Assembly: GCA_900317085.1 (NCBI GenBank)
Contig: ONFJ01000030.1
Coordinates: 1-40,610, forward strand
Direction of reading: 5' to 3'
Source: an uncultured Eubacteriales bacterium
Lineage (GTDB): Bacteria > Bacillota > Clostridia > Oscillospirales > Acutalibacteraceae
DNA length: 40,610 nucleotides
The position numbers and the translations under genes are program-made. Shown here piece by piece: positions 14,980 through 27,390 of this stretch (its first letter is position 1; each line of letters begins with the position of its first letter). Under the pieces are notes generated by a model that worked only from the letters and a program-made list of their open reading frames with translations, had not been told where the DNA came from and made no database searches.

Positions 14980-15094
14980 CTGGCACCATGGGAACTTTTT
15001 GGAGCGCGAACAGCGAATCGCGAGCTGAAACATCTCAAGCCAAAGCATCGTGAGCGAGGCATCGCAAGATGCAGCTTGCTGAAACTCATATAAC
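14980..15094. other. Non-coding stretch after the aminopeptidase
   Basis: It holds short imperfect hairpins (for example GCATC-GCAA-GATGC near 15058-15071) and no plausible gene. It is probably the 3' untranslated region before the terminator. Confidence 0.4.
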
Positions 15095-15133
15095 ACCGGA
15101 CTCTCCCAAAACGGGAGGTCCGGTTTTCTTTTG
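15095..15133 (+). terminator. Terminator of the prfA-to-aminopeptidase run
   Basis: ACCGGACTCTCCC and CGGGAGGTCCGGT pair with one mismatch around AAAA and are followed by TTTCTTTTG. Confidence 0.88.
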
Positions 15134-15206
15134 CCTTGCTATTCACTGACGCCTGCCAGGTGGTTGATACAAAGCAGGTATTATAATATTGCGCCAACGT
15201 CATGAA

Positions 15207-15582
15207 TACATGTCAAACTATCATATTTGGAAGCTTGCCATGTATTCTCAAGCCATCTATCCTTTGGGTTCTCGCAAAATGCATGTCAAATCAACTTTTT
15301 CAGAGGATTGCCATGCAAATCGCCTCGGCATATGCCAGAGAACAGTACTAACGTAGGGGCAGCTGAAAGAATAATACATGGCAATTATTGGGAGATCCTG
15401 AACCTGACATGTAAAATGAAAAAACCAGCATGTCTCCCTCGACCAGTAATACATGGCAATTCTCGATGATAACGATTCTGCCATGCATCTGTCCTTCATC
15501 TCTCATGCTTCTTTCATCCGGCTGGACTGTTGAACCACATTAGAAGCATGTCAAATGAGTCTTTTCATAATTCTGCCATGTG
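15207..15582. repeat. Dyad array 1: five 38-bp units
   Basis: Units lie at 15207-15244, 15280-15317, 15375-15413, 15450-15487 and 15545-15582. Each has a left arm like TRCATGKCA and a right arm like TGMCATGYA. The CATG cores are 30 bp apart (31 in unit 3). The 20 bp between arms are unrelated from unit to unit. Spacers between units are 35, 57, 36 and 57 bp, so starts step by 73, 95, 75 and 95 bp. The first 57-bp spacer carries a GGCATATGCC palindrome. No credible coding sequence crosses the array. It resembles a set of protein-binding dyads more than RNA hairpins, because arm mismatches are common. See arrays 2 and 3. Confidence 0.85.
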
Positions 15583-15726
15583 TTTTAGAAAAGCAACCCC
15601 TTGCCTGCTGCCGGTACTCTGCCCGTCATCAGCATACTACTCAGTATTAGCCTTTTGTCCGGTGTCTACTTTCTTGACCTCATCGGATGCACTGTGGCTT
15701 GTTAGACAAAAGTGCCGGGTTGGCGT

Positions 15727-15758
15727 TTCACATTTTCCCTGCAGCCGGCTAATATAGT
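15727..15758 (+). promoter_or_regulatory. Putative promoter of the sigma-factor gene
   Basis: A TATAGT box lies 20 bases after TTCACA. The same pair with the same 20-base spacing, and similar flanks (AATATAGT then GARAG), precedes the VanZ-like gene at 17068-17099. The shared block suggests a common regulator or sigma factor. Confidence 0.45.
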
Positions 15759-15786
15759 TATGAGAGCAATCAGGAGGCGATACACA

Positions 15787-16356
15787 TTGGTTGCCATTAT
15801 GTTTATGGATCTGCTGGATGACCCGGCAGAAGAACCGCGATTCACGCAGATGTGTGAGCACTACAAAAACTATATTTATACGATATGTTTCAGTCGTTTG
15901 CATGACGAGCACCTTGCGGAAGACTGTACCTGGATGACGTTTGAACAGGCGGCAAAGCAGTTCCACAAATTCGATGGGGACATTTTGTCGAATCGGGTGA
16001 GAAACCTGCTTTGTACGATCGCTGTTGCGAAATGCAGCCGGGAATGGAGAAAGCAGAAACGGTTTTACGAGGTTGGAGGAAAGCTCGGCGAACAGAAGGA
16101 TGGAACGGCAAGAGAACCTTCCACCGAAGATGTTCTGTGGAACCGATGGCAGCTGGAAGAACTGAAATCGGCGATCGACCAGTTGCCGGAACACTATAAG
16201 GTTTCTCTGTTTTTGGCGAAAATCTATGGCTTTTCTGCGAAAGAAATCGCGGAAATATGCGATGTAACGCCTGAAACGGCTCGAAAACGAGTCAGCTTGG
16301 CAATGAAAGAAGTTCGCAACATTTTGGAAGGAGAGCAAATCGGCGATGAAGAATGA
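15787..16356 (+). CDS. RNA polymerase sigma factor, ECF-like
   Basis: This is a 189-residue sigma-70 family protein. Region 2 spans roughly residues 15-65 (HYKNYIYTICFSRLHDEHLAED). Region 4, near the C-terminus, has a clear helix-turn-helix, FSAKEIAEICDVTPETARKR, preceded by IDQLPEHYKVSLFL. I chose TTG at 15787 because AGGAGG at 15772-15777 is 9 bases upstream. It overlaps the next gene by 11 bases. That next gene encodes a membrane protein, as in sigma/anti-sigma pairs. Codon use and base composition are AT-richer than in the housekeeping genes to the left. Confidence 0.85.
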   Translation: MVAIMFMDLLDDPAEEPRFTQMCEHYKNYIYTICFSRLHDEHLAEDCTWMTFEQAAKQFHKFDGDILSNRVRNLLCTIAVAKCSREWRKQKRFYEVGGKLGEQKDGTAREPSTEDVLWNRWQLEELKSAIDQLPEHYKVSLFLAKIYGFSAKEIAEICDVTPETARKRVSLAMKEVRNILEGEQIGDEE

Positions 16357-17017
16357 CATGTTCACAGAAGCATGTGTTCTGGCGCAGGAACAGTGGGTCC
16401 CTGCTTTTCTGAAAACGGAAGAAGAACACAAGTTCAGCAGGCAATTTAACCAGCGAATGGATCGCCTGTACAGTAAAATGCGCGGAGGTCACTACCACCG
16501 CCTGACAAAAACGTCTTTGTCCATTCTCGTGGCGGCAGTTCTCATCGCGACACTGATGGTTGCTTCGATCGCCTATGCTCCGACACGAAGATATCTAATC
16601 GAAGTATTTGATGATCACACAGAATTTAAAACAGAAGACAGCGGGCTGACATCGATTCCTATGGACATCCACTTTGGATTTATTCCTGAAGGGTTTGAAT
16701 TGGTGGAGCGGGAAATTGATGGGGAAACGTGCGAACTAGACATAGAAGGCAAAATAGGAATGGTTTCCGATTATCATTTCGAGACTCCCGATGGGCGTTG
16801 GATCGATGCATCGAAATATCCTGCCGCTGGGCAACTAGACGTTGACAGCGAAGATCATTCTGTTGAAGTTATCGGTCACGATGACATAGTATACTTTTTG
16901 TCCTATTCCGAGCCAGATATCTATGGAGTGTATTGGCTGAAATCGGGAATACAATATGATTTAGGAGGAAAGCTCACCCGCGAAGATGCTTTAAAAATGG
17001 CTTATCAGATGTGGTAA
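16346..17017 (+). CDS. DUF4367-like membrane protein, probable anti-sigma partner
   Basis: This is a 223-residue protein. An N-terminal cytoplasmic part of about 55 residues is followed by a single membrane helix near residues 56-76 (LSILVAAVLIATLMVASIAY). The extracellular C-terminal domain begins PMDIHFGFIPEGFELVERE and resembles DUF4367, a domain often carried by products encoded next to sigma factors. The 11-base overlap with the sigma gene argues for a regulatory pair in which this protein holds the sigma factor at the membrane. That role is inferred. A canonical zinc-binding anti-sigma motif (HxxxCxxC) is not seen. Confidence 0.75.
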   Translation: MKNDMFTEACVLAQEQWVPAFLKTEEEHKFSRQFNQRMDRLYSKMRGGHYHRLTKTSLSILVAAVLIATLMVASIAYAPTRRYLIEVFDDHTEFKTEDSGLTSIPMDIHFGFIPEGFELVEREIDGETCELDIEGKIGMVSDYHFETPDGRWIDASKYPAAGQLDVDSEDHSVEVIGHDDIVYFLSYSEPDIYGVYWLKSGIQYDLGGKLTREDALKMAYQMW

Positions 17018-17040
17018 AACAAACAATAGAGAATGAGCGG

Positions 17041-17080
17041 CATTCTGAAAGTATTTTCAGAATGTCGTTCACTTTTTTTG
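17041..17080 (+). terminator. Terminator of the sigma operon
   Basis: CATTCTGAAA and TTTCAGAATG form a 10-bp stem around GTAT, followed by TCGTTCACTTTTTTTG. The T tract overlaps the putative promoter of the next gene. Confidence 0.75.
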
Positions 17081-17099
17081 CCAACCAGGGAAATATAGT
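17068..17099 (+). promoter_or_regulatory. Putative promoter of the VanZ-like gene
   Basis: TTCACT, a 20-base spacer and TATAGT, matching the arrangement before the sigma-factor gene. It overlaps the tail of the preceding terminator. Confidence 0.45.
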
Positions 17100-17145
17100 A
17101 GTGAAAGGGTAACCAAAAGCAAATACGAAAAGGAGGAGTTCTTGC

Positions 17146-17637
17146 GTGAATAGCCAAAAGAAGCGATATGTGGTGAGCGGCTTGAGTGTTGCTTATGTTT
17201 TATTCCTTGTCTATCTGTTTCTCGTGTGGGGAAGAGGGCCGATATTTCAGGAACTGCCGATCAGTGAATATGCAAAAACGTATGTGAATGTTATTCCGTT
17301 TAAAACGACCGTGGAGCAACTTCGCAATCTGAATGCCGGACTGATTAACACGGAAATCGTTTTAGCCAATACACTTGGCCATATTCTGGCGTTTTTCCCG
17401 ATGGGAGCATTACTGGCGCTCGCTTATGAAAGAACACGGCAGAAGCATCTGCTTCTTGTTTCGTTTTTCTCTCTTCTGTTAGAACTCATCCAGTTGGTCC
17501 TGCATATTGGCAGCTTCGATGTGGATGCCATCATATTCAATGTCTTAGGCTACTTTGTCGGTTTGTGGTTCACAAAAGCTGTTACGAGCAGTATCAAAAG
17601 AAAGCAGACTAAGAGAGGAGCGACAGTTTCGTACTGA
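17146..17637 (+). CDS. VanZ-like family membrane protein
   Basis: This is a 163-residue membrane protein with about four hydrophobic helices. VanZ-domain features are visible: NVIPFKTTVEQL, then NTLGHILAFFPMGALLALAY, LLLELIQLVLHIGSFDVDAIIFNVLGYFVGLW. VanZ itself gives low-level teicoplanin resistance, but most family members have no known role. The start is GTG at 17146, supported by AAGGAGG 9 bases upstream. It is a monocistronic unit between two terminators. Confidence 0.85.
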   Translation: MNSQKKRYVVSGLSVAYVLFLVYLFLVWGRGPIFQELPISEYAKTYVNVIPFKTTVEQLRNLNAGLINTEIVLANTLGHILAFFPMGALLALAYERTRQKHLLLVSFFSLLLELIQLVLHIGSFDVDAIIFNVLGYFVGLWFTKAVTSSIKRKQTKRGATVSY

Positions 17638-17681
17638 CAAATGGAAAGACTGCTTGAATAAGACTAGTTGCCTAGATGTGA

Positions 17682-17711
17682 GACTCACCGGCTTCGGCCG
17701 GTGAGTCTTTT
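17682..17711 (+). terminator. Terminator of the VanZ-like gene
   Basis: GACTCACCGG and CCGGTGAGTC form a perfect 10-bp stem, followed by TTTTGCG. Confidence 0.88.
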
Positions 17712-17789
17712 GCGTAGTGACAGCTGCTCTCTCTGATCCACTGGACGATTTATGTCCCTTTGAACCGTTCGTCGCCCAAAATGGAAACA

Positions 17790-17803
17790 ATAACGACCGT
17801 TCG
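17790..17803. promoter_or_regulatory. Shared 14-bp upstream motif (copy before the 17919 gene)
   Basis: ATAACGACCGTTCG is identical to 25835-25848, upstream of the paralogous gene. Further partial copies (ACCGTTCGTCG at 17764, CAGTCGTTCGGG near 17819) lie within 60 bp. It is a candidate regulatory site for this gene family. Confidence 0.55.
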
Positions 17804-17872
17804 ACCGGCAAAATCGACCAGTCGTTCGGGACAACCCGTTTTCATGGCTCGATTTCGTATATGCTGAGTTCG

Positions 17873-17900
17873 TTGGACCTGTCAATAAAAACCATATAGC
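17873..17900 (+). promoter_or_regulatory. Putative promoter of the 17919 gene
   Basis: TTGGAC, a 16-base spacer and TATAGC, ending 18 bases before the ATG. The leader would be very short. Confidence 0.4.
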
Positions 17901-17918
17901 GAAGAAAGGAAAGATCCG

Positions 17919-18815
17919 ATGAACGACAATGCAAGAATGATGATCGACCAGCTCGGCGAAACGACGATTCCATCGATTGGGAATGCGCTCCACGAATTAA
18001 AAGACAGGAGAGCGTATTTGCAATATCTGATTCGAAAGAAGGAGAAGTCTATCGCCAAAGCTCCAGAGGGGTATTTGATCGTGCAAAAAGCCGGACGCGG
18101 CGAAAGCCTGCAGTATTACCGTGTCACGTACGATGAGCGGAATCGCCGCCGCAGGACCTACATTTCAAAAAGAAAGGACCTGCCATTGATTCAGGCGCTG
18201 GCACAAAAGGATTATGACCGGAAGGTGCTGGAAGCAGCAAATCTTGAACTGGCTGCCATCGACGGGCTCCTGACCCATATTCCGAAGAACTCGGCAGAGA
18301 ACATATATGCGTTGCTGGACCTGCAGAGAGCCCTGTTAGTGCATCCGGACGTGGAACCGACAGATGTTTTCATCGCCAAATGGCAAGGGAAAGAGTATGA
18401 CGGGAACCCTTATCCGATCCAGAAAAAACACTACACTGCCCGGGGAGAGATCGTCCGTTCGAAATCAGAAGTGGAGATTGCGAACTTCCTGTTTTTTCAC
18501 GGCATCCCTTACCGCTATGAGCATCCGCTGAAGTTGAGAGATGGGCATCAGACAGTGACCTATTATCCCGATTTTATCATTATGGATCCGGTCACACGGA
18601 ACGTCATTTTGTTGGAACATCTGGGGCGAATGGATGACCCGGAGTATGTGGAGGAACAGGTCCGAAAACGCCGTGTCTATGAAGAAAACGGGTTCTTCGA
18701 AGGGGAGAACATTATCTATACCTGGGAGACAGGGTCTCAACCGTTGACACGAGTGCAGCTGGAACGCAAACTCGGCCATTATTTGCATCTGGGTCTGGAG
18801 CCATGGCGCTCTTAG
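17919..18815 (+). CDS. Unknown protein, possible PD-(D/E)XK-like nuclease, linked to dyad array 2
   Basis: This is a 298-residue soluble protein with no signal or membrane segment. The N-terminal half starts with a helical stretch (residues 17-45), then a small domain with APEGYLIVQK, LQYYRVTYDE and RTYISKRKDL. The C-terminal half has RSKSEVEIANFLFFHGIPYRYE, TYYPDFIIMDP and ILLEHLGRMDD. The order Glu, PD, Glu within a short alpha/beta domain resembles PD-(D/E)XK nucleases, but the expected Lys is His (EHLG), so activity is uncertain. A clear paralogue is encoded at 24912-25751. The ribosome binding site is AAAGGAAAG before the ATG. Dyad array 2 begins 73 bp after the stop. I do not know its function. 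Confidence 0.75.
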   Translation: MNDNARMMIDQLGETTIPSIGNALHELKDRRAYLQYLIRKKEKSIAKAPEGYLIVQKAGRGESLQYYRVTYDERNRRRRTYISKRKDLPLIQALAQKDYDRKVLEAANLELAAIDGLLTHIPKNSAENIYALLDLQRALLVHPDVEPTDVFIAKWQGKEYDGNPYPIQKKHYTARGEIVRSKSEVEIANFLFFHGIPYRYEHPLKLRDGHQTVTYYPDFIIMDPVTRNVILLEHLGRMDDPEYVEEQVRKRRVYEENGFFEGENIIYTWETGSQPLTRVQLERKLGHYLHLGLEPWRS

Positions 18816-18888
18816 TGCCGGAATTGCCCTGGCTTCTTTTCAGCAACCATGTTGGCCAGTGCGAAGTTATCTTTGCTTTTTGGGCGGA

Positions 18889-19240
18889 TGCATGTCAAAG
18901 CTGGAGAAAAGGAAAAATGCCATGTGAATCTGGCTTCGCAAAGCATCCGGGTTTGCCAAAATACATGGCTGAGTCATAGTGCTTTAAAACTGCCATGTAA
19001 TTCTCACAACGGGAGACGAGTCAGTTTGATGATTTACATGTCAGGGCTTGGTTTTCCGGTCATTGACATGTGTTTTTCTGTCAACGGATCCGGTTCGCAA
19101 ACAGCCTGCCGGCATATGCTGTGGCGATTTACATGGCAGACTTTCCATAACGCAGAATTGACGTGCATTTTATAAATGTCAGCAAAATGGCGTGCCGAAG
19201 AATGCATGGCAGAATTGCGAAAATGCAGAATTGACATGCT
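18889..19240. repeat. Dyad array 2: five 38-bp units
   Basis: Units lie at 18889-18926, 18962-18999, 19035-19072, 19130-19167 and 19203-19240. All are exactly 38 bp with arms TRCATGKCW and TGMCRTGYR and core-to-core spacing of 30 bp. Starts step by 73, 73, 95 and 73 bp. Unit 4 has CGTG instead of CATG in its right arm, matching the core of array 3. The 57-bp spacer contains GGCATATGC, as does a 57-bp spacer in array 1. The array lies directly 3' of the gene at 17919-18815. Confidence 0.87.
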
Positions 19241-19260
19241 TATTATGAAAATCCAAAGCA

Positions 19261-19290
19261 AAAACCCGCCGGTCTGGTCCGGCGGGTTTT
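19261..19290 (+). terminator. Bidirectional-type terminator after array 2
   Basis: AAAACCCGCCGG and CCGGCGGGTTTT form a perfect stem around a 6-base loop, with TTTT on both strands. Confidence 0.85.
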
Positions 19291-19554
19291 GCTTGTTTTG
19301 GGATTTGGGTTAGGAAAGGTATTCTATGTCTTTGAGAAGGAGAGGATGATGTTTGTTCCAGAGGTGCTCTCGTTCTGGTTTCATTGTAAAGCCCTGCTTC
19401 TACTGCCCACAAGCCCCCATGGGGGTTCTTTTTGGAAAGTTGAGACACATTTTTCAAAATGTCTCATTTTGACAAGCCGTTTTTGGCGCAAACCGGGCTG
19501 CAAGCGAAGAGCGATTCTGACTCTCCTTCTTCGACTTGAAAGTGAATACGAATG
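19291..19554. other. Non-coding stretch with further hairpins
   Basis: No convincing gene is present. It contains AGCCCCC-AT-GGGGGTT followed by CTTTTT (about 19412-19433) and an imperfect TGAGACA...TGTCTCA hairpin (19441-19465) followed by TTTTGAC. Both look like extra terminator-like structures. A short frame from an ATG near 19348 runs through these hairpins and is unlikely to be coding. Confidence 0.45.
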
Positions 19555-19584
19555 CAAAAAACCGGACCTCCAGCGAGGTCCGGC
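19555..19584 (-). terminator. Terminator of typA
   Basis: Leftward, CCGGACCTC and GAGGTCCGG pair perfectly around GCTG and are followed by TTTTTTTG. It lies 44 bases after the typA stop. Confidence 0.9.
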
Positions 19585-19628
19585 TTTGGGTTTGATTCAT
19601 TTGTGCTGCAGCTTGCGAGGAGTGGCAG

Positions 19629-21429
19629 TTACTTATGGAACTGCTGTTTGAGGCGCTTTTCCTTTGAGAGGATGGTCTTTCTGAGACGAAGGCTCTCCGG
19701 GGTGACTTCGAGGAGTTCGTCGTCGCCGATGAATTCCATGCACTGTTCGAGGGAGAGGTTCGTTGGCGGGACGAGGCGCAGGGCGTCGTCGGAGCCGGAG
19801 GCGCGGGTGTTGGTCAGGTGCTTCGTCTTGCAGACGTTGCAGACGATGTCTTCTGCCCGGCTGCACTCGCCGACGATCATGCCTTCGTACACGTCGACGC
19901 CGGCGCCGATGAAGAGGGTGCCGCGGTCCTGCGTGTTGAAGAGGCCGTAGGCGGAGGAGACGCCGGTCTCGTGGACGACGATGGAGCCGCGCTCGCGGGT
20001 CTCGATGTCGCCCTTGTACGGCGCGTAGCCGTCGAAGAGCTGGTTCATGATGCCGTTGCCGTTGGTGTCGGTCATGAACTCGGACCGGTAGCCGATGAGG
20101 CCGCGGGACGGGACGGAGAACTCGAGGTGGGTGGCGCCGCCGTCGTTCCGCTTTGCGGGTGCCGAGGTTCTCGATGACCGCGCCGACGTAGTCGCCGGGG
20201 ACCTCGATGGAGAGGAGCTCCATCGGTTCGAGGAGCTGGCCGTTCTCGTCGCGCTTGTAGATGACCTTCGGGCGGGAGACCGCGAACTCGTAGCCTTCGC
20301 GCCGCATGGTTTCGATGAGGATGGACAGGTGGAGTTCGCCGCGGCCGGAGACCTTGAACGTGTCCGTGGTCTCGGTCTCTTCGACGCGCATCGCCACATT
20401 CGTCTCGACTTCCTTGAAGAGGCGGTCACGGATGTTCCGGGAGGTGACGTACTTGCCTTCCCGTCCCGCGAAGGGGGAGTCGTTGACGATGAAGTTCATG
20501 GAGATGGTGGGTTCGTCGATCTTGATGAACTCCATGGGTTCCACGTGCTCGGGGTCGCAGGCGGTCTCGCCGATGTTGATGTCCGAGATGCCGGAGACAC
20601 AGATGATCTCGCCGGCGCCGGCCTCTTTGACTTCCTTACGGGCGAGGCCTTCATAGACATACAGCTTCGAGACTTTGACCTTCTCTTCGGAGCCGTCGGC
20701 CTTGCACAGGACCAGGGGCTCGTTCTGTTTGATGGTGCCGCGCTCGATGCGCCCGATGCCCATACGACCGACATAGTCGTCGTAGTCGAGGGAGGAGAAG
20801 AGGACCTGGAGCGGCGCGTCCACATCGCCCTTCGGCGCCGGGACCTCTTTCAGGATGCTCTCGAAAATGGGCCGCATATCGCCCTCGCGGTCGCGCTCAT
20901 CGTAAGAGGCATAGCCGTCTCTGGCGGAGGCGTACACCACCGGGAACTCGATCTGGTCCTCGTCCGCGCCGAGCTCGATGAACAGGTCGATGACCTCGTC
21001 CACCACTTCGGCAGGGCGGGCGCCGGGCCGGTCGATCTTGTTGATGACGACCACGACCTTCTTCTTGAGGCCGAGGGCCTTCTTCAAAACGAAGCGGGTC
21101 TGGGGCATGCAGCCCTCGAACGCGTCGACGAGCAGCAGGACGCCGTCCACCATGAGGAGGATGCGTTCGACCTCACCGCCGAAGTCCGCGTGGCCCGGGG
21201 TGTCGATGATGTTGATCTTCGTGTCGCCATAGCGCACGGAGGTGTTTTTCGAAAGGATGGTGATGCCGCGTTCCCGCTCGAGGTCGTTCGAGTCCATGAC
21301 CCGTTCATCGACCTGCTCGTTCTGGCGGAAGATGCCGCTCTGCTTCAGCAGCGCGTCGACCAGGGTGGTCTTGCCGTGGTCGACGTGGGCGATCATCGCG
21401 ACGTTGCGAATGTCTTCTCGGAGTTTCAA
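19629..21429 (-). pseudogene. typA: Ribosome-associated GTPase TypA/BipA with a frameshifting deletion
   Basis: The N-terminal part has the GTPase motifs [14 protein letters not shown] (P-loop), DTPGHADFGGEVERIL and NKIDRPGARPAEV. The frame reads through ENLGTRKAE. At about 20147 it breaks, and the rest (NDGGATHLEFSVPSRGLIGYRSEFMTDTNGNG to the C-terminus) continues in another frame. Relatives have five or six more residues at this point (a KAEM..M type stretch), so several bases appear to be missing and not just one. The translated product would end in an unrelated Arg-rich tail. The start is probably TTG at 21429 ([16 protein letters not shown]), although the purine-rich GGCGGAG is unusually close. 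A TTG at 21522 is an alternative. TypA is involved in ribosome assembly and stress adaptation. Confidence 0.9.
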
Positions 21430-21549
21430 AGCTCCGCCCGGCCGTTCGCCAACCGAACCCCGCAATTGCTTTGCAAGAGGGGCAATTGGGACCCCAAACG
21501 CCCGGCCGGACTTTTCTTCCAAGATAGCATTAGATTTTTGTTCCGCAAA

Positions 21550-21578
21550 ATTCTATCACTCGCCCCGCTCCATTGCAA
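21550..21578 (-). promoter_or_regulatory. Promoter of typA
   Basis: Leftward TTGCAA, a 17-base spacer and TAGAAT. The leader of roughly 110 bases can form AATTGC/GCAATT and CCGGCCG/CGGCCGG stems. Confidence 0.55.
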
Positions 21579-21610
21579 GGATTTCTCTTTTATTTTAAAG
21601 GAACGCGCGG

Positions 21611-21616
21611 TATAAT
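21611..21616 (+). promoter_or_regulatory. Probable -10 box of the 21677 operon
   Basis: A perfect TATAAT lies about 60 bases before the start codon. The -35 region is poor (TTTTAT at 17 bases). Confidence 0.4.
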
Positions 21617-21676
21617 GAGTAGAACTGTATCCCGGGGGCGATGCACGCCCTCTCTCCAGAAAGGAACCGTACCAAT

Positions 21677-22216
21677 ATGGCAGAACAGAATACAGCAAAA
21701 CCGAAAAACACGAAAAAGATCGCCATCATCGTGGTGGCCGCCGTCCTCGTCGTCGCCGTCATCGCGGCGGCCGTCGTCCTTCTTTTGAAGAACAGCGGGA
21801 ACGTCGGGCCGAAGGACCCGAACGGAGACCCGCTCTTCCCGAAGGCCTCCGCCGTCACGAGCGTCGAGTACCTCCACCGGGGCGGCATCGACTCCGGCGT
21901 CTCCCTCGCGGAGAAAGAACTGACCGATGAAGCGGGCATCGAGGTGTTCCTCGACCAGCTGAAGGCCATGGAGTACCTGGAGCCCACCGATGAGGACCGG
22001 GCCTCGGTCGACTACACCGGCGACGTCGAGATGCTCACCCTGAAAAAAGAGAAGGGCGAGGATGTCCTCCTCATCATGGGGAAGACCATCAGCATCACGA
22101 ACGAGTATGGCAACTATTTCTATAAGTGTAACGACATCGACATCGAAGCCCTGACGAAGGACTTTGTGGCGATGGACCTCTCCGGCAAGATCGGCGACAC
22201 CGCCGAGGCCGAGTAA
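21677..22216 (+). CDS. Unknown membrane-anchored protein
   Basis: This is a 179-residue protein. A Lys-rich start (AKPKNTKKI) is followed by one strongly hydrophobic helix at about residues 16-38, then a polar extracytoplasmic domain of about 140 residues with no motif I recognise. The topology suggests a small surface-exposed domain on a single anchor. AAAGGA precedes the ATG by 11 bases. It is the first of three closely spaced rightward genes (gap of 21 bases to the next), so the three probably form an operon concerned with the cell envelope. That is inference from context only. Confidence 0.75.
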   Translation: MAEQNTAKPKNTKKIAIIVVAAVLVVAVIAAAVVLLLKNSGNVGPKDPNGDPLFPKASAVTSVEYLHRGGIDSGVSLAEKELTDEAGIEVFLDQLKAMEYLEPTDEDRASVDYTGDVEMLTLKKEKGEDVLLIMGKTISITNEYGNYFYKCNDIDIEALTKDFVAMDLSGKIGDTAEAE

Positions 22217-22237
22217 CCAGAGAACGGAGGTGCCCAT

Positions 22238-23821
22238 TTGAGCACAGACAACCTGAAACAGGCCGAAAAGGACGCTGCAAAGGCCAAGAAAAAAGCCGAA
22301 AAAGCCGCCCGAAAAGCCGAAAAGATGAAAGAAAAGGCCCGCCGCAAGGCTCTGAAGGACGGCACGCTGAAAGCTGCCCTCGACGAGACGCCGACGGACC
22401 CGGACGCGCCGGACCCCCTGCGTCCCCGCACCGAAGAGGAATTGAAAGTCGAACTCGAAGACCTTCGGGCCATGGTCCAGGGCGAGATCGACGAGATGCG
22501 CGAACAGGCCCCGAACGCCGAGTGGGACGACATCGTCAAGCAGGCGCTCTATGAAAAACAGCACGGCATCAAGGCAGAGTACCACCGCCCCGTCATGTGC
22601 GAGATCTGCGGCGAACACGAAGTCGCGGAGGGCACGGACTACTGTGAAGAATGCCTCGACGACATGAAGCACTATCCCTTCGAGTGGTGGCAGTTCATCA
22701 TCCCGCTGATGGCCGTCTTCTTCCTCGTCTTCGGCATCCTGCTCGCCCATGAGGGATTCCCCATCTACCACGGCACCGCCCAGGCCCAGAGCCTTGCCCG
22801 GGAGGGCAAGCTCATGTCCGCTCTCGACAAGTATGGTGAGCTGAACGGGCAGATCGCCGAAGGGTCCGACACCTACGGTTTCCAGTACCGGAAGAACCAG
22901 GTCAAACTCCTGAACCGGACCGGCATCCAGCAGTACGGCGTCCTCGCAAACTACCTCGAGGCCTACTACCCGAACGACCTGAACAAGTGGTACAACCGCT
23001 ACGCGCAGCAGTCCAAGGCCCGGATCGACGAATACGAGGCGGCCTACAACTGCTTCGAGGAAGCGGCGAAGAGTTCGAAGGACTTCAAGTCTCTCATCAA
23101 GGCTTATGACAAGGCCATCGAGGGCAAGGACATCAACCCCGCCTTCGCGAACTACTACCGCTACTATGCCTGCCTCATCTATGAGCAGGGCCTCGACACC
23201 CAGAAGAAGTACGTCGAAGCCATCAAGGCGCAGGGCGAAGAGTACGAGAGCCTGTACTTGCCCCTCGAGACCGAGATCGCTCTGACCGAACAAGACTATG
23301 ACAAGGCGCTGTCGCTCTGCGATACTCTCGAAAAGCGCAACGCCGAAGACGTTTACTCTTACGTATACCGGACGGTGGCGTATCGCCTGAAAGGGGACCT
23401 GAAGGCCGCCGCCAGAGCCTGCGACGCGGGCCTCAAGATCGACGGTACCGCCTCCACCCTCAACTACCAGCGCGCCATCCTCTACCTGCTCGAGGGCGAC
23501 TACAAGCTGGCCTCCGCCTATGCGGAAGAGGCCCACGCGAACGCCGCCACCGCGAACAACTACGTGTCCGCCTGCAGCATCTACTCGCTGATCCTTCAGG
23601 AGCAGATCGCCGACAAGACGACCGCTGTCAAGAACGCCAAGGGCGAGACCAAGACCAAGCTGAAGAGCGAACTGTCCGACCTCAAGTCCACTCTGGAGTC
23701 CCTCGAGACCGAGATGGACGAGTACGGCTACGCGGTCAGCCCGGACGTCGCCAAAGTCATCGCGGGCAAAAAGACCCTCGATGAAGTATTCCTGAAAGGA
23801 GAGGGGGACTTCGCATGGTAA
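22238..23821 (+). CDS. Unknown protein: coiled coil, zinc ribbon, membrane helix, TPR-like repeats
   Basis: This is a 527-residue protein of mixed architecture. Residues 8-42 are a Lys/Ala-rich charged helix, probably a coiled coil. Residues 121-139 hold a CxxC-x11-CxxC zinc ribbon (CEICGEHE and CEECL). Residues 151-170 are a membrane helix. The remaining 350 residues are helical with repeated Tyr/Ala/Glu patterns such as EKRNAEDVYSYVYRTVAYRL and LNYQRAILYLLEGDYKLA that resemble tetratricopeptide repeats facing outside. The start is TTG at 22238, with GGAGG 7 bases upstream. It overlaps the next gene by 7 bases. The function is unknown. Confidence 0.75.
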   Translation: MSTDNLKQAEKDAAKAKKKAEKAARKAEKMKEKARRKALKDGTLKAALDETPTDPDAPDPLRPRTEEELKVELEDLRAMVQGEIDEMREQAPNAEWDDIVKQALYEKQHGIKAEYHRPVMCEICGEHEVAEGTDYCEECLDDMKHYPFEWWQFIIPLMAVFFLVFGILLAHEGFPIYHGTAQAQSLAREGKLMSALDKYGELNGQIAEGSDTYGFQYRKNQVKLLNRTGIQQYGVLANYLEAYYPNDLNKWYNRYAQQSKARIDEYEAAYNCFEEAAKSSKDFKSLIKAYDKAIEGKDINPAFANYYRYYACLIYEQGLDTQKKYVEAIKAQGEEYESLYLPLETEIALTEQDYDKALSLCDTLEKRNAEDVYSYVYRTVAYRLKGDLKAAARACDAGLKIDGTASTLNYQRAILYLLEGDYKLASAYAEEAHANAATANNYVSACSIYSLILQEQIADKTTAVKNAKGETKTKLKSELSDLKSTLESLETEMDEYGYAVSPDVAKVIAGKKTLDEVFLKGEGDFAW

Positions 23822-24342
23822 TCCTGTATGAGATCATCAAAATGCTCACCTTCCCGGGTGCCCTGCTCAAAGGGTTCCTCGAGCACCTCTTCTGCCGGCT
23901 CTGGAAAGTTCCGGTCGAGTACTCCGACTACATGCAGCGCAACGAGCTCTGCGGCCACGTCGAACACCTGCTGGCGCCGCACAAAGGCTCTTTCGCCATC
24001 TGCTTCGGCCCGCACCTCATCATGCTGCTCCTCGGTTCCGTCATTGCGTTCCCCGGGGCGATGAACCTCTTCTACATCGGAACGTTCAACTGGCTCTCCG
24101 TCATCCTCTTCTATGTCGGCGTCAGCTTCCTGGCGAACGCGTTCCCGCTCGTCGAAGACGCCCTCAACATGTGGAGCGAACTCTTCTCCGACGAGTCCAA
24201 AGGCGTCTCCAAAGTGCTGCTCGCCATCCCGGCCGCCGTCATGTACTGCGGCGCCTACCTCGAGCGCTACTGCGTCTCGCTGCTCACAAGCCTCGCGTTC
24301 GCGTACGCGCTGCCCTGGCTGGTGGCACTCATCGTCGGCTGA
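23815..24342 (+). CDS. Unknown integral membrane protein
   Basis: This is a 175-residue protein with at least three hydrophobic segments: about residues 63-81 (ICFGPHLIMLLLGSVIAF), 86-106 (FYIGTFNWLSVILFYVGVSFL) and the C-terminal 140-175. The pattern of His and Glu residues between helices (CGHVEHLLAPHKG) could bind a metal, but this is speculative. The start ATG at 23815 follows AAAGGAGAGGGGG and overlaps the preceding gene by 7 bases, so they are translationally coupled. No family is recognised. Confidence 0.7.
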   Translation: MVILYEIIKMLTFPGALLKGFLEHLFCRLWKVPVEYSDYMQRNELCGHVEHLLAPHKGSFAICFGPHLIMLLLGSVIAFPGAMNLFYIGTFNWLSVILFYVGVSFLANAFPLVEDALNMWSELFSDESKGVSKVLLAIPAAVMYCGAYLERYCVSLLTSLAFAYALPWLVALIVG

Positions 24343-24427
24343 GGCCCGGCGCTGCTCGCCGGCTTCCTTACGAAGTCCGGGGATTTCTCTTTGCTTTTGA
24401 TCGAAGGCCAGGCCAGGTCTTCTCAAA

Positions 24428-24762
24428 AGCACGTCTTTCTCAGCTTTTTCGGAGAAAGACGTGCCTGGGTGAGCGAGAATCGGGCTGCCGCTCATGGCTA
24501 CGGCACGTCTTTCTCAGCTTTTTCGGAGAAAGACGTGCCTGGGTGAGCGAGAATCGCGCTGGTTCTCATGGCGGCGGCACGTCTTTCTCAGCTTTTTCGG
24601 AGAAAGACGTGCCTGGGCGAGCGAGAATCGGGCTGCCGCTCATGGCGGCGGCACGTCTTTCTCAGCTTTTTCGGAGAAAGACGTGCCTGGGCGAGCAAGA
24701 ATCGCGCCGGTTCTCATGGCAGCGGCACGTCTTTCTCAGCTTTTTCGGAGAAAGACGTGCCT
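24428..24762. repeat. Dyad array 3: five 38-bp near-perfect hairpin units
   Basis: Units start at 24428, 24502, 24576, 24650 and 24724, an exact 74-bp period with 36-bp spacers. Each unit is a 14-bp stem, GGCACGTCTTTCTC and its complement, around AGCTTTTTCG (the first unit lacks the outer G-C pair). The arms GCACGTC and GACGTGC have their CACG/CGTG cores 30 bp apart, the same unit length and spacing as arrays 1 and 2, differing by CACG for CATG. Spacers alternate between two types: units 1 and 3 are followed by a form with GGGCTGCCGCTCATGGC, units 2 and 4 by one with a GGTTCTCATGGC ending, so a dimer was probably duplicated. The array lies 3' of the gene at 24912-25751. Confidence 0.92.
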
Positions 24763-24911
24763 GCTACTGTTTTCGGGCTCTTGAAGCCCCTACATTTTGT
24801 AAGCAAAACTTATGCTTTGCTTTTTTGTCTTTTTCTCCTTGCCTGGCTGGGAAGCACGAATGGTGAATCGCCAAAAGGAGTAGGTGGCTAACGTGGACGT
24901 GCTATGTGCGA

Positions 24912-25751
24912 TCAGCTGTCTCGGCCGAGGGCATGCTCCACCCGCCTGCCCAGGGTGCGAACGTCCAGCGGCACCTTGTCTGACTCGAAGGAGAGGAGCA
25001 GGGACTCGCCCACGAAGTAGCCGTTCGCTTCGTAGAGCGAGATCCGGTCCATGGCGGAGCGGAAGTAGCGCTCGTCTTCCATCATACCGAGGTGTTCGAG
25101 GTAGAAGCATTTTCCGGTTGCCGGGTCCAGGATGGTGAAGTCCGGGTAAATGGTGATCCGCCTGGGCTGCTTCGGGTCCCACAGTTCCAGCGCGCACTCG
25201 TAGCGGTAGGGGATGCCGTGTTGAAAGAGCCAGTTCGCGATGATCAGCTCGGACTTGGAGCGCACCCGTTCACCGCGCTCGGTCACATAGTACGGGTCGT
25301 CTTCCCGGAAGCCCTTCCGCGGGTATTCTTCGCGGAGCCAGCGTTCCAGGAACACGTCTGCCGGTTCCCAGTACGGGTCCACCAGTGGCTTCCGGTCTTC
25401 CGAGAGCTTTGGGTAAATGTCTTCCCCAAGCTCTGCAGGATATGTTTTTAAGAAGCGTGAAATGACAGCGTATTCTGCCCTGACTCTGCTCAAAACGGTC
25501 AAATAGTACCCCTTGTTTGCCAGCGCTTTGATCAGCGCCAGATCCGTTTTGCGGATATAAGTTTTCTTGCTGCTCCGGTGTTCGTCCCCGTCGCCGGAAA
25601 CACACTGGTAGTATTTGACAGATTCGCTCTGTTTATGTTTCGAGATGACCAGGTGGCCGGGCGGGGCTTGGGCGATTCGCGCCGTGAGCTCTCGGATGAC
25701 TCGCTCGAGTTCTTTCTGGCGGTCGATGATGGGCTGTAAGTCGAGTTGCAT
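24912..25751 (-). CDS. Unknown protein, paralogue of the 17919 gene, linked to dyad array 3
   Basis: This is a 279-residue soluble protein. It shares with the 17919-18815 product the N-terminal pattern APPGHLVISK, VKYYQCV and TYIRKTDLALIKALANKGY. It also shares the C-terminal block RSKSELIIANWLFQHGIPYRYE, ITIYPDFTILDP and FYLEHLGMMEDERY. The Glu/PD/Glu order again suggests a PD-(D/E)XK-like fold with His in place of the Lys. I chose the ATG at 25751 because AAAAGGAG lies 8 bases upstream. An upstream in-frame ATG would add 20 residues that do not match the paralogue. It is GC-richer than its paralogue. Its 3' side holds dyad array 3, and its 5' side the shared 14-bp motif. Function unknown. 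Confidence 0.78.
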   Translation of the reverse strand: MQLDLQPIIDRQKELERVIRELTARIAQAPPGHLVISKHKQSESVKYYQCVSGDGDEHRSSKKTYIRKTDLALIKALANKGYYLTVLSRVRAEYAVISRFLKTYPAELGEDIYPKLSEDRKPLVDPYWEPADVFLERWLREEYPRKGFREDDPYYVTERGERVRSKSELIIANWLFQHGIPYRYECALELWDPKQPRRITIYPDFTILDPATGKCFYLEHLGMMEDERYFRSAMDRISLYEANGYFVGESLLLSFESDKVPLDVRTLGRRVEHALGRDS

Positions 25752-25811
25752 GAAGTGCGCTCCTTTTTGAAAGATTTCCTCATCATAAGCACACTTCGAG
25801 GGGCTTCGCAA

Positions 25812-25817
25812 CTATAA
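25812..25817 (-). promoter_or_regulatory. Putative -10 box of the 24912-25751 gene
   Basis: TATAGT reads leftward about 60 bases before the ATG. The -35 candidate TTATGG at a 16-base spacing is weak and overlaps the shared motif. Confidence 0.35.
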
Positions 25818-25834
25818 GCCGTTTTTCGGAGACC

Positions 25835-25864
25835 ATAACGACCGTTCGGCAGTTATTAACTGCC
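25835..25864. promoter_or_regulatory. Shared 14-bp motif plus 17-bp palindrome
   Basis: ATAACGACCGTTCG (25835-25848) is identical to 17790-17803. It runs directly into the perfect palindrome GGCAGTTATTAACTGCC (25848-25864), itself followed by CCGTTC again. It is a candidate operator upstream of the paralogue, in reverse orientation relative to the gene compared with the other copy. Confidence 0.55.
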
Positions 25865-25896
25865 GTTCATCGAGAACTTGTTATATTTTGGCGAAA

Positions 25897-25930
25897 AAGA
25901 GACCCCGGAAACTCGGAGGAGTTTCCGGGG
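25897..25930 (-). terminator. Terminator of the DUF975 gene
   Basis: CCCCGGAAACTC and GAGTTTCCGGGG form a perfect 12-bp stem around a 4-base loop. Leftward it is followed by TCTCTTTTTCG, and rightward by TGTTTGTTTGG, so it may work both ways. Confidence 0.88.
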
Positions 25931-25951
25931 TGTTTGTTTGGTTTGTGGTGG

Positions 25952-26803
25952 TTACGCTTCGACGGGGGTCTCCGGGAGTTCCGGGAGGACGTTGGTCTCA
26001 GCTTTGAGCGCTTCATAGAACGCAGCGTGAGTGCTGAAGATGTAGGGGTTGACGTAGAAGAGGCCGAGGATGCCGAGGGTGAGGATGTCGAGAAGGATCC
26101 ATCCGATGAAGGACAGGTCGAGGACGAACAGTTCCCACTTGTGGCCCTTCATCATGTTCCAGGAAGCCTTGATGACATCCATGATGCCCATGCCGGGGTT
26201 GTCCGCCAGGATGTATGGGACCATTTCCATGCCGTAAGACACGATGATGCCGGGGATGAGGAAGAAGAGAAACCCAAGGGCGACGAACAGGTTTTTGAGA
26301 GCCATGGTGATCATGTTGTTCCAGTACTTCGGAACGAAGCCTCTGTTGAGTTCATCGAGTTCCGCTTTTTCCACAAGGTTCTTCTTGAAGAAGTTCCGGC
26401 CGCTGACTTCCAGAGGACCAAACAGGAAAAGGGTCAGGAGGGCGGACAGAGTGCCGAGGCCGGCGATGGTGCCGACGTTGACGGACTCCTTCAGACGCTG
26501 GGACACGGGTGCGGAGGGCGTGGCAGCTACATTCGCATCATCGTCCAGCAGGAACCCGAAGTCCTGATTGATGTCGGTCGTATCGAAGTCTTCACTTGGG
26601 AAGGGGTTATAGTCTTCGGGGTCGACCGAAACGGACTGAGACTGCTGCGGTTCGGCCAGCTCCTCGAAATCGACCGAATTCGAGGCGGAACCGGCGTTCC
26701 AGCCACCGATGGCGATGGTCAGAAGAATGGCGACCAGGACCGCTTTCCAGTAGTTTGCTTTAAAGGCCGCTTTGCCGCGGGCTTTCAGCTCTTTGCGATT
26801 CAT
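25952..26803 (-). CDS. DUF975 family membrane protein
   Basis: This is a 283-residue polytopic membrane protein. The N-terminus MNRKELKARGKAAFKANYWKAV and the C-terminal WNMMKGHKWELFVLDLSFIGW with LTLGILGLFYVNPY are typical of DUF975. A polar loop of about 60 residues, rich in Asp, Ser and Gln, separates the first helix from the rest. The role of the family is unknown. I chose the ATG at 26803, preceded by AAAGGAG at 7 bases, over an upstream start that would add 16 residues. Confidence 0.87.
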   Translation of the reverse strand: MNRKELKARGKAAFKANYWKAVLVAILLTIAIGGWNAGSASNSVDFEELAEPQQSQSVSVDPEDYNPFPSEDFDTTDINQDFGFLLDDDANVAATPSAPVSQRLKESVNVGTIAGLGTLSALLTLFLFGPLEVSGRNFFKKNLVEKAELDELNRGFVPKYWNNMITMALKNLFVALGFLFFLIPGIIVSYGMEMVPYILADNPGMGIMDVIKASWNMMKGHKWELFVLDLSFIGWILLDILTLGILGLFYVNPYIFSTHAAFYEALKAETNVLPELPETPVEA

Positions 26804-27183: not shown

Positions 27184-27297
27184 ATCCGGCGAAGGGGGCG
27201 GAAGAGCAGTTCCGGAAGGCAGACTGGCCGCAATTCACCGGAAAACGGTTTTTTTCAAAGGGGAGTTGTGCTATACTCTTCAGGAATTATGAGCAGG

Positions 27298-27390
27298 GGC
27301 AGTGCATCGCCTGAAGAGAGGGCAGTGCATCGCCTGAAGAGAGGGCAGTGCATCGCCTGAAGAGAGGGCAGTGCATCGACCGAAGAGGGT
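27298..27390. repeat. Tandem 23-bp repeat, four copies
   Basis: The unit GGCAGTGCATCGCCTGAAGA plus GAG repeats at an exact 23-bp step starting near 27298, 27321, 27344 and 27367. The fourth copy diverges (ATCGACC). Each unit contains GTGCATCGCC, close to the GTACATCGCC motif that follows at 27416. It lies in the leader of the phosphatase gene. Confidence 0.8.

Follow-up and report, generated by a model that had tools for sequence, protein, structure and literature searches.

We describe a 40,610-bp stretch of DNA from an uncultured Eubacteriales bacterium (hereafter, the window) that carries three arrays of gapped palindromes, or dyads, together with the genes of two predicted nucleases. The arrays are rows of dyads set almost whole helical turns apart, and they lie beside genes for predicted TnsA-like nucleases (array 1 about 2.3 kb before one); judged from sequence, they are probably private docking sites read by the variable N-domain of the nuclease. 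The window lies on contig C58 of a 1.94 Mb genome assembly (133 contigs, 93.5% complete). An earlier note, made from the letters alone, had drawn attention to the arrays; its shared architecture and defined element stand, but it had missed the nuclease genes, the helical phasing, the private arms, the presence and absence between species, and the dispersed copies.

Arrays of the window and their nucleases

Array 1 (15,207–15,582) consists of five dyads at 15,208–15,581, with arms RCATGKCA..TGMCATGY and steps of 73/95/75/95 bp; it lies some 2.3 kb ahead of nuclease A. Array 2 (18,889–19,240) has five dyads at 18,890–19,239 with the same arms and steps of 73/73/95/73 bp; it begins 75 bp after the stop codon of nuclease A. 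Array 3 (24,429–24,763) is built of five near-identical dyads (24,429–24,760) with arms GCACGTC..GACGTGC and steps of 74/74/74/74 bp, and ends 152 bp past the stop codon of nuclease B. No strand is assigned to any array. The core distance is 30 bp in the window dyads, and 31 bp in the dyad at 15,376–15,412.

All fifteen dyads, in three five-unit arrays of one geometry, are present where the earlier note had placed them. Its claim that they cannot be due to chance was borne out: with at most one mismatch allowed, TTGMCATGYA was found 23 times where 5.6 occurrences would be expected, and no array of three or more dyads appeared in dinucleotide shuffles, whether the window and 30 other loci were shuffled once each or 28 further loci 140 times in all. 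The unit of array 3 has a single match in this genome (E 0.001)—the array itself. The proposed search motif had to be corrected, since with a gap of N24 it has zero matches in the window; the correct gap is N22. A CACG arm in array 2 (19,159–19,166) had been taken as a bridge between the two arm types; the orthologous array of the congener G004 carries CATG there, so this arm is a point difference rather than an intermediate, and the bridge was dropped.

Nuclease A (17,919–18,815, plus strand) is the last gene of the stretch bounded by arrays 1 and 2. Its 298-residue product is predicted to comprise an N-terminal helix and three-strand meander, a long helix, and a C-terminal PD-(D/E)XK-like domain with residues E184, P217-D218, and E233-H234. 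Nuclease B (24,912–25,811, minus strand) is a paralog with 43% identity to A; its frame opens at 25,811, with an internal ATG at 25,751. Both are predicted members of a PD-(D/E)XK, TnsA-like nuclease family. Neither matched any Pfam or NCBIfam model, and these models gave no HuH transposase domain. The C-terminal domain aligns with the nuclease portion of the PADLOC candidates PDC-S68/S69 (E 5e-26), and three of four plasmid matches to the nuclease domain are annotated as AAA family ATPase. A sequence search of PDB gave no useful match for the nuclease and Foldseek against PDB no significant one; against viral models Foldseek gave eight matches at E ≤0.001 with low TM-scores, some of them named endonuclease or restriction enzyme. 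Among phage and plasmid records, one phage record spans 91% of the protein (29.6% identity) and seven other matches span the nuclease domain only, while a viral-contig scan found zero family members. No cognate methyltransferase, such as a restriction-modification system would have, was found among the ten window open reading frames (ORFs) scanned.

Helical phasing of the dyads

Centre-to-centre distances between dyads fall into clusters at 52–54, 62–65, 72–76, 83–85, and 95 bp. For 187 steps, dispersed arrays (described below) included, the best period was 10.55 bp, with a phase near zero and a vector strength of 0.855; with the 71–77 class taken out (88 steps) the period was again 10.55 bp and the vector strength 0.81. 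In the set from outside the genus (81 steps), the best of 11 periods was 10.25 bp (0.83), versus 0.795 at 10.5 bp, phase zero. After arrays were collapsed by arm type—imperfectly, as the CATG type is counted three times, and with L056 and L169 left out because they show other loci a second time—32 of 33 had a median step no more than 1.5 bp from a multiple of 10.5 bp (p 9e-17; flat optimum at 10.55–10.75 bp). Individual steps in these arrays behave similarly, 160 of 176 lying within 1.5 bp of a multiple and five in the half-turn zone.

Changes of step larger than 4 bp inside arrays (n = 49) included 16 of 9–12 bp, seven of 20–23 bp, and 22 of at least 52 bp; this last class mostly resembles missed units. 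Array 1 differs from its G004 counterpart by a 22-bp, or two-turn, block, and identity between the two is 96% in arms, 77% in centres, and 69% in linkers; for array 2 the contrast is weaker (91%, 82%, and 86%, respectively). Helical phasing explains the steps of 73, 85, and 95 bp, and the pattern of spacing points to double-stranded DNA with bound protein—proteins on one face of B-DNA—rather than to RNA hairpins. An RNA reading of the arrays alone was rejected because of this DNA phasing; in Rfam searches, no family reached its gathering score in the window, and three loci gave weak sub-threshold matches.

Private arms and the N-domain

The arms are private to each array, and about 30 arm types were counted. 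The CAYGKC arm that had been put forward as the defining motif is a real arm type, but one among these; the reading that admitted only CAYGKC was dropped once dispersed elements showed other arms. Five units per array, likewise, are common but not fixed, with 4 to 16 detected units elsewhere.

Nucleases that share arms are 94–100% identical over residues 20–87; those with differing arms are 51–65% identical over these residues and 82–92% in the nuclease domain (the L156 row, being out of frame, was not used). L158 and L163, for instance, have unrelated arms and nuclease domains that are 92% identical. Because the identity of the N-domain tracks the arms while the nuclease domain stays conserved, residues 20–87—codons at 17,976–18,179, plus strand, in nuclease A—likely read the array arms.

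Distribution and adjacency

A search of the genus found 30 members of the nuclease family in seven of eight genomes, with seven in the source genome. An array of at least four dyads lies within 1 kb of 19 of the 30; one further member has arrays 1.8 kb off, one has a three-unit array, and nine have none, six of which stand at most 445 bp from a contig end. Outside the genus, 28 loci were fetched from a longer match list (L184 and L209, from the source genome itself, were left out). Within about 1.5 kb of flank, 13 of them have an array of at least four dyads and one an array of three units, and no array is seen in the other 14. At the named loci L170–L172 an array is present at one of three, in a Lachnospiraceae metagenome-assembled genome. 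As a control, 17 stretches from five genus genomes (318,509 bp) held one array, and its contig also carries a family member.

More widely, a protein search with one family member returned 923 relatives. Carriers number 25 of 391 Clostridia genomes, our own included, and none of 52 genomes of family and order relatives has the nuclease family; the distribution is therefore patchy.

Only three nuclease genes were seen to have an array on either side: nuclease A, its ortholog in G004, and L191. The gene at L191, a locus from outside the genus, is flanked by one array of 9 dyads and one of 16, with a step of 53 bp and with related arms in opposite orientation (GTCCGTGC, GTACGGAC). Two adjacent arrays at L147:2916-4179 (G006:C53), one of 8 dyads and one of 11, differ in their arms and in their steps (74 and 63 bp) and lie 1.8 kb from a nuclease gene.

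Presence and absence in congeners

For both units of the window, the corresponding site carries the unit in some congeners and lacks it in others. In G003 and G005 the terminator that follows array 2 in the window comes immediately after the M18 aminopeptidase gene; the stretch at 14,980–19,254 (no strand assigned), between the M18 stop codon and that terminator, is absent, and 4.3 kb are thus gone. Between arrays 1 and 2 this stretch carries, all on the plus strand and named from Pfam, an ECF-type (extracytoplasmic function) sigma factor (15,712–16,356; Sigma70_r2, Sigma70_r4_2), a DUF4367 protein (16,346–17,017), and a VanZ-like protein (17,146–17,637). In G001 the ECF sigma gene comes right after M18 without array 1, and the contig ends thereafter; part of the cargo between arrays 1 and 2 may therefore be older than the arrays, and from sequence comparison either insertion or loss is possible.

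Array 3 and nuclease B are absent at their site in G005 and G004. G003 holds a divergent allele at this site: the gene shows 72% identity and its two flanks 91% and 98%, and the array that goes with it is a different one, made of GGACGTGC dyads. Divergence changes sharply over a short distance here: positions 25,775–26,500 are 98.4% identical to G003, neighbouring stretches 91–94%, and nuclease B 72%.

Dispersed arrays

A defined element should recur, as the earlier note had expected, and five-unit clusters with 73–75-bp steps do occur at other places in the genome, and a congener has steps of 95 bp. The search model for CATG-type arrays was built from 17 dyads. The C82 array has five units with steps of 73/73/85/73 bp and the C23 array five with 74/73/84/73 bp; contigs C26 and C125 share an exact 99-base overlap and, if adjacent, hold four units with a step of 73 bp; and the end of C90 holds a single dyad. 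G004 has two arrays, at positions corresponding to arrays 1 and 2, and under stricter filters the model matched only the source genome and G004 among 60 genomes, our own included.

The C82, C23, and C26 arrays come after a left flank of about 130 bp that is conserved and foldable and has four matches in the source genome and 13, 9, and 15 in G004, G003, and G007 (four of eight genus genomes). RNAalifold gives this flank −27.7 kcal/mol and two pairs with two-sided changes, with a covariation term of only −0.05. After the same flank, G004, G003, and G007 carry arrays that keep this geometry but differ in their arms: CTACA..TGTAG, AACCTACGC, TCAAAGGCAT, GGTGGTACA, CACGCYAAA, AAAGCAACC, CATGCTAA, and others. 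The left end of the dispersed element (CAAACTGAAATTTGTCGAGG type) is recognisable in 18 of 23 loci, where it abuts unrelated DNA; four loci have a comparable right end. The element is apparently mobile. Examples with left flank, variable array, right flank, and CAAACTGAAATTTGTCGAGG ends are L053:1228-2150, L054:8310-9250, and the L055/L056 ends. In L074/L095 (G007:C61), the array region of one dispersed element contains a gene recognised by eye as an IS256-type transposase, about 200–300 bp past the left flank.

Eleven of 21 dispersed arrays match a nuclease-side array of the same genome over seven of seven arm bases, and no cognate was found for the other 10; between genomes, 8 of 356 pairs match. 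The 11 matches are not independent events, because elements of one family share ancestry. The dispersed arms of L053, L055, and L109, which the detector did not group, were entered by hand from the sequence, and L102, L104, and L106, with no array given, are outside the 21.

Other features of the window

The motif ATAACGACCGTTCG is seen in the sequence upstream of nuclease A (17,790–17,803, plus strand) and of nuclease B (25,835–25,848, plus strand, the gene being on the minus strand). It or its core lies about 95–155 bp upstream of some nuclease genes only—both window genes, L052, L153, L154, and L161—and is possibly a common regulator site of several nuclease genes. A 23-bp tandem repeat with four copies occupies 27,297–27,387.

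Proposed mechanism and comparison with known systems

In the mechanism that we propose, a nuclease dimer would bind each dyad, its N-domains reading the two arms. Four or more dimers would then align on one face of the DNA and cooperate, and this cooperative binding would load, place, or restrain the nuclease. The nuclease gene and its array would form a unit that is gained and lost, changing specificity; dispersed arrays with the same arms would be passengers or extra docking sites, much as repetitive extragenic palindromic (REP) sequences are for TnpA-REP. The outcome may be spread, self-control, or defence; we tentatively favour a selfish or domesticated REP-like unit. The chances seem to us about even that this is a new class of genome-resident unit, in which the exchangeable N-domain of a nuclease and its phased docking array change together, a single genome can carry at least seven such nucleases and several private arrays, and the dispersed arrays are addresses in the same code.

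By analogy, REPtrons are nearest in logic and TIGR-Tas is nearest in layout. In a REPtron, a TnpA-REP gene has cognate palindromes nearby and dispersed, and the palindrome differs per protein and co-evolves with it (PMC8266576, PMC3116915). Here, too, one gene has cognate palindromes nearby that are also dispersed in the genome, a likeness that holds for 11 of the 21 dispersed arrays, and the palindromes differ between proteins and appear to change along with them. In contrast to REPtrons, the enzyme is predicted to be PD-(D/E)XK-like and not an HuH tyrosine transposase; the arm lists, judged by eye, have no common tag like the GTAG found 5' of REP palindromes; the dyads are gapped, phased in whole DNA turns, and set in arrays of 4–16; and the gene unit itself is present or absent between species.

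Several other systems share single features. The PADLOC candidate defence helicases PDC-S68/S69 have a C-terminal nuclease domain; however, the family described here lacks the helicase part and has a variable N-domain instead. In plasmid centromere arrays such as F sopC, tandem dyads are bound by a dimer, whereas the present arrays are on chromosomal contigs, beside nuclease genes, and have private arms. The arrays are not CRISPR, as had already been argued, having dyad arms with inherited linkers, in place of a single conserved repeat between unrelated spacers, and no cas domain among the ten ORFs scanned. The earlier note knew of no described element with such a layout, and our searches of open-licence papers (nucleases beside repeat arrays, Firmicutes, Clostridia, helical phasing) likewise gave nothing that matched by title and abstract start.

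Alternative explanations

The arrays could be only operators that repress or time the adjacent nuclease gene. Phased operators are a common means of repression, and of the genus loci with an array, 21 in all, nine have it ending at most 150 bp upstream of the frame start; in a tenth, L152, it also begins upstream. However, the nearest array is at or after the stop codon in nine of the 21 (both window nucleases, L052, L145, L153, L154, L157 twice, and L160), and further arrays bearing the same arms occur at dispersed sites apart from the gene; we regard operators alone as unlikely.

A TIGR-Tas-like RNA-guided system would have the arrays transcribed and cut into hairpin guide RNAs, which a coiled-coil nuclease protein would use to find DNA. 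PMC12045711 describes an array beside a coiled-coil protein with locus-private repeats—features found here as well—in which repeats of 8–12 nt alternate with two 9-nt spacers and give a 36-nt tigRNA. Against that dual-repeat array, steps here are 52–95 bp, the phasing is that of DNA, and the linkers are inherited and near-identical. TIGR-Tas has a Nop-domain protein and also a stem-loop type of array with box C/D; there are palindromes here and no common box in the arm lists by eye, although according to PMC12045711 the motifs can diverge. We consider this explanation improbable.

About equally improbable is a Tn7-like transposon whose ends would be the arrays, like the TnsB sites of Tn7, and whose TnsA would be the nuclease. 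Tn7 has multiple binding sites at the edges of the mobile unit, the nuclease fold is predicted to be TnsA-like, the stretch bounded by arrays 1 and 2 is missing from G003 and G005, and the G004 arrays have mirrored step orders (74/94/73/73 and 73/73/95/73). Yet no TnsB, TnsC, or DDE transposase was found among the ten ORFs scanned; specificity here apparently lies in the nuclease protein; two-sided arrays were seen only in the three cases given above; and target duplication was not seen, the absent stretch starting 227 bp before array 1. Passive mobile tandem hairpin repeats (BOX- or REP-like) that lie near nuclease genes only through a shared preference for intergenic DNA would fit the dispersed copies, which form part of a distinct repeated element that has ends of its own, but are very hard to reconcile with adjacency at 19 of 30 and 13 of 28 loci versus one array in 318 kb, with helical phasing, and with N-domain identity that tracks the arms.

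Implications

If residues 20–87 do read the arms, nature would have altered the DNA specificity of one fold dozens of times in parallel, each time with the target beside the gene, and a protein-DNA recognition code would become directly testable. If the docking-site reading is true, Clostridia would hold a REP-like system built on an unrelated enzyme; this raises the question of why a phased docking platform for a predicted nuclease should be maintained in the chromosome that encodes it—for self-spread, self-control, or defence.
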